Of a DNA stretch of 39,852 nucleotides, positions 10,696-39,742 are shown piece after piece. The translations under genes and the position numbers were made by a program. This stretch comes from Lachnospiraceae bacterium (GTDB taxonomy: Bacteria; Bacillota; Clostridia; Lachnospirales; Lachnospiraceae): contig JAJQIL010000023.1 of the NCBI GenBank assembly GCA_021199235.1, forward strand, positions 1 through 39,852, given 5' to 3'. The notes under the pieces were generated by a model, which was not told the origin of the DNA, did not search any database, and saw nothing but the letters and a program-made list of their open reading frames with translations. How positions within the stretch are numbered: the first letter of the stretch is position 1; every line of letters begins with the position of its first letter.

Positions 10696-11577
10696 ATGAA
10701 GAATAACAACAATCAAAGACACCTGGCGCGAACAGCGGCGGACATGGCGGCAAGACTTCTGTACCCGCCGCGCTGCCCGCTCTGTGACGAGCTTTGCCCA
10801 ACGCGTAGCGTTTTTACATGGGCAAAGCGATCTTCCGCCTCTGTTACTGTTTCTGATCTCGTCTGCGGCAGCTGCCGCGACAGGCTTCCGTGGGTCAGGG
10901 AACCCGCGTGCATGAAATGCGGCAAGCCGGTGGGCAGCTCCGAGACAGAATTCTGCAGGGACTGTGCGCGGACCAGGCATCTTTTTGACCAGGGGAGGGC
11001 TGCGTTTACCTATACCGGTGCAATGCGTCACAGTGTATACAGGATGAAGGCGCAGAACCGGCGCGATTACCTGGATTTCTACGCCGCGGCGATGGTGCGC
11101 GCCGGCAGCCGGTATCTGGAAGCATGGCGGCCGGAGATGATCGTGCCTGTTCCGATGCATTGGAAGAAACGTGCCGCACGAGGCTACAACCAGTCAGAAC
11201 TGCTGGCGGTCAGGATCAGCCGCCTGACAGGGATTCCCTGTGACCGGAAGCTGCTGCGATGTGTGCGCTATACGGGTGTTCAAAAAGAACTGGGGCGTGA
11301 GGAGCGACTGCGGAACCTGAGAGGAAGCTTTGAGGTACGATTCCCTGCAGAAGGCCTTTGCCGGCCGGAGCGCAGGAATGATCCGCCGGATGCGGGGCAG
11401 AGGATGCCTGCGCGCGTCCTTCTGATCGACGACGTATATACGACCGGAAGTACGATGGACGAGGCTGCAAGGGCACTCCGTGCGGCAGGAGTGCGGCAGA
11501 TTTTTTTCCTGGTGTTATGTACCGGTGCGACCGATGTTCACAACCCGACCACGCACTTGCTGCGTGGTCAGGGTTGA
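10696..11577 (+). CDS. comF: ComF family competence/phosphoribosyltransferase protein, altered C-terminus
   Basis: ComF proteins are cytoplasmic PRTase-fold proteins needed for single-stranded DNA uptake in competent cells. Zn-ribbon cysteines are visible at the N-terminus (CPLC, CGSC, CMKCG, CRDC), then the VPVPMHWKKRAARGYNQSELLA segment and the PRPP-binding loop VLLIDDVYTTGST. After FFLVLCTGATDVHN the protein reads into a hairpin-rich insertion and stops at 11577. Without the 172-bp unit it would end HNRILS at TAA 11729-11731. The conserved fold is complete before the junction, so the gene may still work. The ATG at 10696 lacks a clear Shine-Dalgarno; a later ATG at 10744 is possible. It follows recD2 by 63 bp. 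Confidence 0.88.
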   Translation: MKNNNNQRHLARTAADMAARLLYPPRCPLCDELCPTRSVFTWAKRSSASVTVSDLVCGSCRDRLPWVREPACMKCGKPVGSSETEFCRDCARTRHLFDQGRAAFTYTGAMRHSVYRMKAQNRRDYLDFYAAAMVRAGSRYLEAWRPEMIVPVPMHWKKRAARGYNQSELLAVRISRLTGIPCDRKLLRCVRYTGVQKELGREERLRNLRGSFEVRFPAEGLCRPERRNDPPDAGQRMPARVLLIDDVYTTGSTMDEAARALRAAGVRQIFFLVLCTGATDVHNPTTHLLRGQG

Positions 11578-11717
11578 AAACGTAGTGGCAACAGGCATCC
11601 GGCTCCATCGCCAAGCGATTTCATTGGCCGGATGCCTACAGGTCACGCTTACACAGGTTTGTTAACATGGATTTGGTCTGGGCGTGACCTGTACCGGTGC
11701 GACCGATGTTCACAACC
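11518..11717. repeat. 28-bp direct repeats bounding a 172-bp hairpin-rich unit
   Basis: The same 28 bases, beginning TGTACCGGTGCGACCGATGT, occur at 11518-11545 and 11690-11717, exactly 172 bp apart. Three stems lie within this span: 11541-11555 with 11561-11576 (15 bp, one bulged A, loop CTTGC), 11593-11603 with 11627-11637 (11 bp, perfect, containing a nested ATCGC/GCGAT hairpin), and 11637-11648 with 11682-11693 (12 bp, perfect). There is no ORF of note. Removing one unit restores a shorter comF ending. It could be a small non-autonomous element with a 28-bp duplication, or the product of a tandem duplication. Confidence 0.8.
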
Positions 11718-11747
11718 GCATTCTTTCTTAAGAATGGCAAAAAACGT

Positions 11748-11775
11748 TTGCATGACTCGGAAACTGTGCTATACT
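11748..11775 (+). promoter_or_regulatory. Promoter of the cdaA operon
   Basis: TTGCAT (11748-11753), 16-bp spacer, TATACT (11770-11775) with an extended TG at 11767-11768. It gives a short leader of about 20 nt. A 7-bp hairpin (CATTCTT/AAGAATG, 11719-11736) lies just upstream. Confidence 0.75.
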
Positions 11776-11802
11776 GAAAAATAAAAGGAGGGGGGAAGCA
11801 AA

Positions 11803-12681
11803 ATGAGCGGGTTTCTGTTTTGGCTGAAGGACAGCCTTTCCTGGCTGACCATACCGACCGTGTCGATTACGCTCACGGATATTCTTGAAATTCTGATTCT
11901 GGCTTTCCTCGTTTACAATCTTCTGCTCTGGATTCAGAATACCAGAGCCTGGAATCTTCTGAAGGGTATTGCGATCCTGTCAGCCTGTATTGCGCTTGTG
12001 TATGTGCTCCAGATGACGACGCTGATGTATCTTGTGAACCGGGTGGTGGATATTGCTATTACGGCTGCGGTTGTCGTGTTCCATCCAGAGATACGCAAGG
12101 CGCTGGAACAGCTTGGCGAGAAGCCGATTTTTTCCGGTCTGTTTCAGCTGGGAGACGACGGCAAAAATGTATCGGAACGATTCAGCGACAAGACGGTCAA
12201 TGAGATTGTAAAAGCATCCGTGGAAATGAGCAAAGCCAGGACGGGAGCCCTGATCGTGGTAGAACAGAATATCCGGCTGGAGGAATATGAGCGGACCGGG
12301 ATCATGCTCGATTCCATCGTGACGAGTCAGCTTCTGGTCAATATTTTTGAGCACAATACACCGCTCCATGACGGCGCGGTGATCATTAAGGGGAATCGCA
12401 TCACGGCGGCGACCTGTTACCTGCCGCTGTCTGACAATATGATGCTGAATAAGGCGCTTGGCACCAGACACAGGGCGGGCGTCGGGATCAGTGAGGAGAC
12501 GGATTCGATGACAGTGATCGTTTCGGAAGAGACCGGAGATATTTCTGTCGCGTACAGAGGGGAGCTGCTGCACGGGATTTCCTCAGAAGAGCTAAAGAAG
12601 CAGCTTGAGATTTTACAGAATAAATCTGTTGCCCCAAGGAAATTTAAGCTCTGGAAAGGGCGGGCGAAAAATGAAGCATAA
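11803..12681 (+). CDS. cdaA: Diadenylate cyclase CdaA (membrane, DisA_N domain)
   Basis: Makes cyclic di-AMP from two ATP; in Firmicutes this controls potassium and osmolyte balance and cell-wall stability. The 292-residue product has hydrophobic N-terminal segments (three likely helices in residues 20-90), then the DAC domain with its two signature motifs DGAVIIKG (about 189) and GTRHRAGVG (about 219). AAAGGAGGGGGG at 11785-11796 is a strong ribosome site for ATG 11803. The next gene, cdaR, overlaps its end by 11 bp, the conserved cdaA-cdaR pairing. The usual third partner, glmM, is not next in line. Confidence 0.96.
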   Translation: MSGFLFWLKDSLSWLTIPTVSITLTDILEILILAFLVYNLLLWIQNTRAWNLLKGIAILSACIALVYVLQMTTLMYLVNRVVDIAITAAVVVFHPEIRKALEQLGEKPIFSGLFQLGDDGKNVSERFSDKTVNEIVKASVEMSKARTGALIVVEQNIRLEEYERTGIMLDSIVTSQLLVNIFEHNTPLHDGAVIIKGNRITAATCYLPLSDNMMLNKALGTRHRAGVGISEETDSMTVIVSEETGDISVAYRGELLHGISSEELKKQLEILQNKSVAPRKFKLWKGRAKNEA

Positions 12682-23873: not shown

Positions 23874-23901
23874 GTAATCTGTGAAGGTACTGAACAGTTA
23901 C
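23874..23901. repeat. Dispersed palindrome, copy 1
   Basis: GTAATCTGTGAAGGTACTGA followed by ACAGTTAC. Arms of about 8 bp (one bulge) surround a conserved GAAGGTACTGA centre. The same unit recurs at 29406-29454 and 37518-37544. It lies in the leader of the HD-GYP gene, 48 bp before its start. Confidence 0.75.
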
Positions 23902-29405: not shown

Positions 29406-29454
29406 GTAATTATTCAGTACCTTCACCGTAACTGTTCAGTACCTTCACAATTAC
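29406..29454. repeat. Dispersed palindrome, two tandem copies
   Basis: Plus-strand GTAATTATTCAGTACCTTCA (29406-29425) is followed by GTAACTGTTCAGTACCTTCA (29428-29447) and ends ...CAATTAC at 29454. Both units share TTCAGTACCTTCAC. The outer GTAATT/AATTAC can also pair. It lies 28 bp upstream of glgC. The rest of 29455-29690 shows no gene or clear signal. Confidence 0.8.
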
Positions 29455-29694
29455 ATTTTGCATTAATTCAGAGCACCATCAAGTCTCAGACATACGACAC
29501 GCAAGGGTCATGCAGTCTGCAGAGCAGGCAATCTGTGGCCTGTTGGACTGAATAGCTGCTGTTAAGTAGAATTGTACCATAAAAATATGGAAAAGGGAAT
29601 TTATTTGTGCAAATTTTTCAAAAATTTTTCACACATATTACAGACAGATGGAAAAACTGTTTTGAAAAAGGGTATGGAACTGTCTGTCTGTTTA

Positions 29695-39601: not shown

Positions 39602-39624
39602 ATAGTAAACGAGTTAAGCCGTTT
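39602..39624 (-). repeat. 23-bp leader element, copy 2 (before traX)
   Basis: On the minus strand AAACGGC, TTAAC, TCGTTTACTAT, 19 bp before the traX start; 19 of 23 positions match the typA-leader copy at 22252-22274. Confidence 0.6.
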
Positions 39625-39629
39625 GTAAC

Positions 39630-39675
39630 GATTTCGCCCAATTTTAAATGCATCTTCGATGCATGGGGCGAAATC
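39630..39675 (-). repeat. Nested hairpin in the traX leader
   Basis: Outer perfect 10-bp stem GATTTCGCCC (39630-39639) / GGGCGAAATC (39666-39675). Inside it is a perfect 7-bp hairpin ATGCATC-TTC-GATGCAT (39648-39664). Confidence 0.7.
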
Positions 39676-39696
39676 ACACATCCGAAACGTGTTCTT

Positions 39697-39725
39697 GCGA
39701 GCCTGACAGCAAGTGTCAGGCTCGC
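39697..39725 (-). repeat. 12-bp hairpin at the 5' end of the traX leader
   Basis: GCGAGCCTGACA (39697-39708) / TGTCAGGCTCGC (39714-39725), perfect, with loop GCAAG on the plus strand and CTTGC on the minus strand. It lies about 11 nt from the predicted start of the transcript. No T-tail on either strand. Confidence 0.75.
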
Positions 39726-39742
39726 CGTGAATAGCAACAAAC

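Follow-up and report, generated by a model that had tools for sequence, protein, structure and literature searches.

A three-hairpin MITE, most likely of IS66 origin, inserted at the end of comF in a Lachnospiraceae bacterium

Several groups of short, palindromic, dispersed and mostly intergenic repeats are known from bacteria, among them ERIC, Correia/NEMIS, RUP and BOX, although these differ from the unit reported here in sequence and in host. Bacterial MITEs such as MITEPsy1 of Pseudomonas syringae (PMC3189936) and MITEAba12 (PMC6382973) are likewise short and transposase-free, with terminal inverted repeats and a target duplication, and MITEPsy1 shares its ends with an IS (PMC3189936). MITEPsy1 is 100 nt long with a 4-nt duplication, whereas the present unit has an 8-bp duplication and three covarying hairpins and is found in many genera of one family. 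An ISBst12 subgroup of the IS66 family is listed in PMC8024623, and PMC9769881 lists an IS66 and draws no link to the MITE of that paper. IS66-like elements found in this study have ends GTTACTRTTCA(C/G), which resemble those of the MITEs, and 8-bp duplications in two cases of three, but they measure about 2.3 kb and carry, besides a transposase gene of 520-558 aa, a small ORF upstream of it. Hairpin 2 of the unit resembles the hairpin of GA-cis RNA (RF02987) in its outer stem, its inner stem with CGAAG and its T-rich stretch ending in AATGG, but the GA-cis match falls elsewhere, inside comF of the relative G013, and the unit itself has none. Searches of the literature on MITEs, IS66/ISBst12 and Lachnospiraceae yielded no description of the element that we recognised among the matches listed, and a search on GA-cis found no paper.

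The insertion lies at the 3' end of comF in the window, by which we mean the whole 39,852-nucleotide stretch of DNA that was analysed. The family to which it belongs is new but of a familiar type, the bacterial MITE, and is not described in the literature and Rfam as searched; the surprise is the depth of its structural conservation, not the kind of element. Copies with the same ends are dispersed over other loci and genomes, they are bounded by 8-bp duplications, comF occurs without the unit, and the fold is kept by compensatory changes. The MITE family is most likely of IS66 origin, and we consider the explanation as a whole, that the unit is a MITE copy moved by a distant IS66-group transposase with its hairpins kept as DNA palindromes, to be probable. 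The odd comF insertion is one copy of an apparently undescribed kind of transposon, carried by at least roughly a fifth of the genera sampled from a single bacterial family.

The insertion at the end of comF

Relatives of comF were found by protein search in 45 of the 47 genus genomes, the window's own included, and the gene downstream, which we take to be cdaA (diadenylate cyclase) from its appearance, follows on the same strand (Table 1). The stop codon of comF at 11577 lies inside hairpin 1 of the unit. The initial annotation had described the unit as lacking any ORF, which holds for ORFs of transposase length, none being present in the 164-bp unit in the ORF list, but not for ORFs in general: at a limit of 50 aa, three plus-strand ORFs extend into it (comF itself and two of 61 and 50 aa, the latter two unsupported), as does one of 132 aa on the minus strand. 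The two identical 28-mers set 172 bp apart are present as first described. A model (R1) built without the window copy matches 11530-11691 with an E-value of 8.4e-11.

Table 1. Coordinates of the insertion and of the adjoining genes in the window
Feature	Position	Strand	Basis or remark
comF (293 aa)	10696..11577	+	ORF list; last codons extend into the element
First 28-mer	11518..11545	+	TGTACC + duplication GGTGCGAC + 14-bp left end CGATGTTCACAACC; decomposed by us from aligned copies
Target duplication GGTGCGAC, left copy, 8 bp	11524..11531	+	Same 8 bases in the uninserted comF of G007
F1-type MITE, 164 bp	11532..11695	+	85% identity to the F1 consensus
Hairpin 1	11541..11576	+	Fold; covariation
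Hairpin 2, with inner stem-loop	11593..11637	+	Fold; covariation
Hairpin 3, with the right terminal repeat at its end	11638..11692	+	Fold; covariation
Second 28-mer	11690..11717	+	Identical to the first
Target duplication GGTGCGAC, right copy, 8 bp	11696..11703	+	Aligned copies
Downstream gene, cdaA-like	11803..12681	+	ORF list; 811/879 bases identical in G013

To compare filled and empty sites, 30 comF loci were taken from the 45 comF-bearing genomes, and in 29 loci the 3' region could be read. The unit is absent from 27 of these regions, present in that of the window, and in that of G013 the sequence breaks off at the insertion; it is therefore neither a fixture of comF orthologues nor confined to them, since copies were found at other loci. 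In G007, which has no insertion, GGTGCGAC stands at the right place. The earlier suggestion that removing one unit restores the natural end of comF was not confirmed: the resulting tail, which we read as CTGATDVHNRILS, is absent from the 27 other complete tails, 7 of which end in exactly CTGKGKKSLHDTKSVLY; those of the two relatives nearest after G013 end in CTGQGKKRLHDTETVLY and CTGATERDRIMPRSIAD. The spacer has been altered by more than a single insertion of the unit.

The proposal of a 28-bp target duplication is most likely wrong, as copies elsewhere have duplications of 8 bp and the window fits an 8-bp duplication, GGTGCGAC, with end-like flanks. The 28-mer can be divided into 6, 8 and 14 bp, and it is longer than 8 bp because its flanks resemble the ends of the element: the 6-bp part, TGTACC, which also occurs in some uninserted comF genes, resembles the right end, and the 14-bp part, CGATGTTCACAACC, which also stands to the right of the second duplication, resembles the left end. 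The ends of the window copy are degenerate (CGATGTTCACAACC...GACCTGTACC, against GTTACTGKTCACAMCC...GACCTGTAAC in most copies), and boundaries placed by the consensus give a duplication matching at only 2 of 8 positions; once the left boundary is shifted by 2 bases, the element is flanked by GGTGCGAC at either end. The degenerate ends of this copy count against the MITE reading, as do the 14 bp of identity beyond the duplication, which are unlike the product of a simple transposition. Such flanks could have come from a partly deleted second left end, from insertion beside an end-like sequence, or from conversion between the repeats.

In G013 the element occupies the same comF site and is split over two contigs because another insertion has broken its first repeat. 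The edges of that insertion (the end of L086 and L057) resemble a group II intron, but these short edges had no intron match in Rfam. The G013 spacer has also received a copy of a sister family, F2, whose duplication, GAAAGAAT, occurs a single time at the corresponding position of the window. The comF end of G013 as shown is identical to that of L005, a metagenome record from Lachnospiraceae, which makes this the probable bacterial family. Both 28-mers of G013 show the same two changes relative to the window (TGTACT and GGC), which are silent in comF, and the second shows one extra change; the shared changes suggest conversion between the repeats, or the elements in the window and in G013 may instead be independent insertions. 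The bodies of the two copies are identical at 152 of 154 positions, whereas third codon positions differ at 76 of 276 in comF and at 61 of 293 in cdaA. Functional constraint on the window copy was considered as an explanation and set aside, since the identity profile shows a similar patch of high identity running into the start of cdaA, which makes a recombined patch as likely as selection.

Dispersed copies and the conserved fold

A search of the rest of the genome and of relatives, as the initial annotation had advised, recovered dispersed copies with locus-specific duplications, and its description of a small, non-autonomous, structured mobile element is borne out by these copies together with the terminal inverted repeats, the unit-free comF genes and the strong covariation. 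The copies fall into F1, of about 165 bp, in genus relatives and F2, of about 134 bp, in the window's own genome; F2 has its parts in the same order as F1 with different stems. Both have terminal inverted repeats of the GTTAC/GTAAC type, clear in F1 and F2 copies and degenerate in that of the window, and an 8-bp target duplication; most left ends read GTTACTGGTCACA or GTTACTGTTCACA and right ends TGTGACCTGTAAC. Matches to the unit at E<=0.001 were found in 15 of 47 genus genomes, the window's own included. Seven genus genomes hold at least 14 to 20 matches each (as a rule 17 candidates were scored per genome), and the window's own genome has three further partial matches to the unit and at least 45 to F2 (40 of 281 candidates scored).

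Duplications were counted in near full-length copies from all loci in the study, 51 of F1 (among them that of the window) and 32 of F2. An exact 8-bp duplication flanks 36/51 and 24/32 copies, respectively, rising to 43/51 and 29/32 when one mismatch is allowed, so that a good duplication is missing in 8 F1 and 3 F2 copies; for any of the lengths 5, 6, 7, 9 and 10, no more than one F1 copy and no F2 copy has an exact duplication. Across the bacterial family, the F2 covariance model matches 56 of 299 genomes (56 of 298 genera), the window's own included, which is a lower bound because 11 candidates were scored per genome and the filters were strict. At 29 such family-wide loci (L230-L258), where ends of type GTAACTGTTCAG are common, the 8-bp duplication is exact in 13 when the ends are allowed to shift by up to 6 bases. 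Copies identical over 132-133 bp stand at different places in G295 (L274/L275) and in G267 (L286/L287 and L288/L289), and movement in these genomes must therefore have been recent; in G157, copies at different places differ at 2-6 positions. Among the few shared flanks, L214 and L216 are one orthologous pair with the same duplication, while L082 and L203 lie at nearly the same site with the duplication shifted. By a rough ORF rule, the gene context of the copies shows mixed orientations and no clear rule. A plasmid search with one copy gave no match and a scan of viral contigs for one exact 25-mer found none; five unannotated phage records from human faeces match the G295 copy at 80-84%.

The three long stems noted between and across the 28-mers, which take in parts of both repeats, were reproduced by folding (Table 1). 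The 200-base fold has an energy of -104.2 kcal/mol, compared with a shuffled mean of -65.9 (z -8.0; none of 200 shuffles as good), and folding the same bases as DNA gives a z of -6.6. The covariance check proposed at the outset showed that the stems do covary, so that neither of the two outcomes named beforehand as refuting the mobile element (presence in every comF orthologue, or stems that do not covary) came about. Three alignments were used: 48 of the 51 F1 copies, excluding three aberrant ones (A2), 29 of the 32 F2 copies, excluding two long ones and a duplicate of another (A3), and a wide alignment of 68 distinct rows fitted to the model; one analysis step was given 64 loci of our own choosing. 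Double changes affect 7 of 38 predicted pairs in F1 alone and 9 of 42 in F2 alone, and in four of five measures the F2 value lies above that of every one of 500 shuffles, the exception being the number of further pair types, in which 434 of 500 shuffles score as high. In the wide alignment, 94.7% of cells are paired, double changes occur in 40 of 42 pairs, and the covariation score is 0.451, against 0.123 for shuffled alignments (0/500 as high) and at most 0.081 for slid versions. The folded shape is thus kept in relatives even where most of the paired letters have changed, which provides an extensive natural collection of compensatory changes in a structure that looks to be of DNA and not of RNA.

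Mobiliser and alternative explanations

Three full-length IS66-like elements carry ends that resemble those of the MITEs. The G009 element (2267 bp, ends GTTACTATTCAC, 8-bp duplication ACTATTTT) encodes a 520-aa distant IS66 transposase, which matches PF03050 above the cut-off (E 1.9e-10) and NF033517 below it (140 bits against 180); the transposases of the G009, G150 and G343 elements together score 140-162 bits against the NCBIfam IS66 cut-off of 180. The G150 element is 2358 bp long, with ends GTTACTGTTCACACCC and GTTACTGTTCAGACGC and the 8-bp duplication GCCGGAAT, and its left end shares 16/16 bases with F1 copy L186, while that of G343 has similar ends and no target duplication; two of the three thus have the 8-bp duplication of the MITEs. 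The 13-nt inner motif AGTGAAAACGTAG lies at base 45 of the G343 element, nearly the same offset as in F1 copy L209 (44), and occurs in this one of the three full-length IS elements. We presume these IS66 relatives to be ISBst12-like; the scores below the cut-off, the missing duplication of the G343 element and the presence of the motif in a single IS element speak against them as partners. MITE-type ends with at most one mismatch were found within 700 bp downstream in 7 of 11 stretches of this IS66 group (the one stretch of the 11 with less than 450 bp to search, a miss, had 54 bp of sequence), a count that is partly circular because some of the patterns derive from these very IS elements. Ordinary IS66 elements were rejected as partners: end-like hits occurred at 3 of 19 loci (4 of which had less than 450 bp to search), each with two mismatches, which by our estimate is about chance. 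An IS66-group element is likely to be the mobiliser. A distant IS66-group transposase, presumably ISBst12-like, would act on the GTTAC/GTAAC-type ends, and the element would insert at a staggered 8-bp cut, in comF between the two GGTGCGAC repeats; the three hairpins would be kept as DNA palindromes that aid end pairing, allow the folded strand to be recognised, or permit one arm to be corrected against the other.

It is rather unlikely that the same MITE owes its movement to a different transposase family, one that likewise uses similar ends and cuts with an 8-bp stagger, a proposal that would also be compatible with an RNA role of the fold. It draws on the distribution of the proteins: L173-like proteins occur in 5 of 41 and L259-like proteins in 10 of 50 searched genomes, fragments included, so that most searched MITE-bearing genomes lack an ISBst12-like protein. 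Any PF03050 match was found in 11 of 20 MITE-bearing genomes, and in neither G157 nor G267 despite their near-identical copies, those of G267 including identical ones; the window's own genome gave no match to the IS66 transposase family. However, among the IS66-type transposases searched, such ends and 8-bp duplications were found solely in the ISBst12-like group. Draft assemblies often lack IS copies, and this may explain part of the absence. Tandem duplication of local sequence by replication slippage, the dull alternative of the initial annotation, could account for a unit flanked by direct repeats and for the two changes that the G013 28-mers share, but it cannot account for the origin, since the unit is not unique to comF: homologous units sharing its ends stand at many further loci, each with an 8-bp duplication specific to that locus; we regard it as highly improbable, although later conversion or slippage between the window repeats is possible. 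Site-specific recombinase integration at a 28-bp core, which the long identical flanks might suggest, is extremely improbable given that the flanking duplications vary by locus in the copies read and share no core.

That the unit acts as a structured RNA of a regulatory or terminator-like kind, spread by transposition and with selection on its fold acting in the transcript, is improbable, even though the covariation is very strong. Pairing is nearly all Watson-Crick, with G-U in 88 of 2680 cells, and an opposite-strand model with its own structure (38 pairs) scores the same copies about equally; together these suggest DNA hairpins. Rfam gave no match in the window or at 8 carrier loci at gathering scores and none for 11400-11800 at E<=1, and when 17 further carrier loci were searched with a limit of E<=1, the sole hit above the gathering score was a THF riboswitch outside the element. 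In favour of an RNA, G-U exceeds A-C on the plus strand by 87 to 23 cells in pairs that are mostly Watson-Crick, and in 26 against 14 columns (F1 has 46 to 7 and F2 has 14 to 7), but the alignment was fitted by RNA rules and the opposite-strand model likewise has more G-U than A-C (61 to 35), an excess on both strands that is expected if fitting favours G-U. In raw folds 39 of 67 copies have the more stable structure on the plus strand and 25 have the less stable one there, and the mean gap between strands is smaller than that of mononucleotide shuffles. A function of the RNA strand was accordingly rejected, the plus-strand G-U excess being weakened by the smaller opposite-strand excess and by the raw folds, while a mild lean towards the plus strand possibly remains. 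In our reading it is at the DNA level that the palindromes are maintained, either through a function or through template-switch correction, and the family gives a caution that covariation by itself is no proof of a functional RNA. Whether IS66-type transposases use folded DNA becomes testable here: it is conceivable, though we hold it to be doubtful, that across this bacterial family the three-hairpin DNA fold is selected more than the sequence because an ISBst12-type transposase recognises the cruciform or the folded single strand, which if true would make it a shape-recognised substrate of a DDE transposase.

Related hairpins in the window and nearby

Further hairpins were seen in the window and its relatives. 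A divergent copy at 39605-39738 on the minus strand (R1, E 4.9e-11) differs in its stems, which are its own, but shares the loop ACTTGCTG. At 23874-23901 on the plus strand, a lone 28-bp right-end hairpin, GTAATCTGTGAAGGTACTGAACAGTTAC, stands between 8-bp repeats, TGTTATAC, and is a minimal derivative or a deletion remnant; at 29428-29673 on the minus strand, two F2-type right-end-like hairpins lie in tandem with a weak model match (E 0.0002). The copies L035, L041 and L056 in the window's own genome are of F2 type and carry further inserts in the hairpin-2 region, those of L035 and L041 being hairpin-rich. Within comF itself, an in-frame hairpin at 10788-10830 is built like hairpin 2, and the corresponding region of G013 comF (L086, 1589-1668) gives the Rfam GA-cis match, at 53 bits. 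An extra stretch of about 12-30 residues in this region is present in the window and in three of eight aligned relatives; four lack it and one has it in shortened form, a pattern that looks like the entry of a palindromic element into a coding gene.
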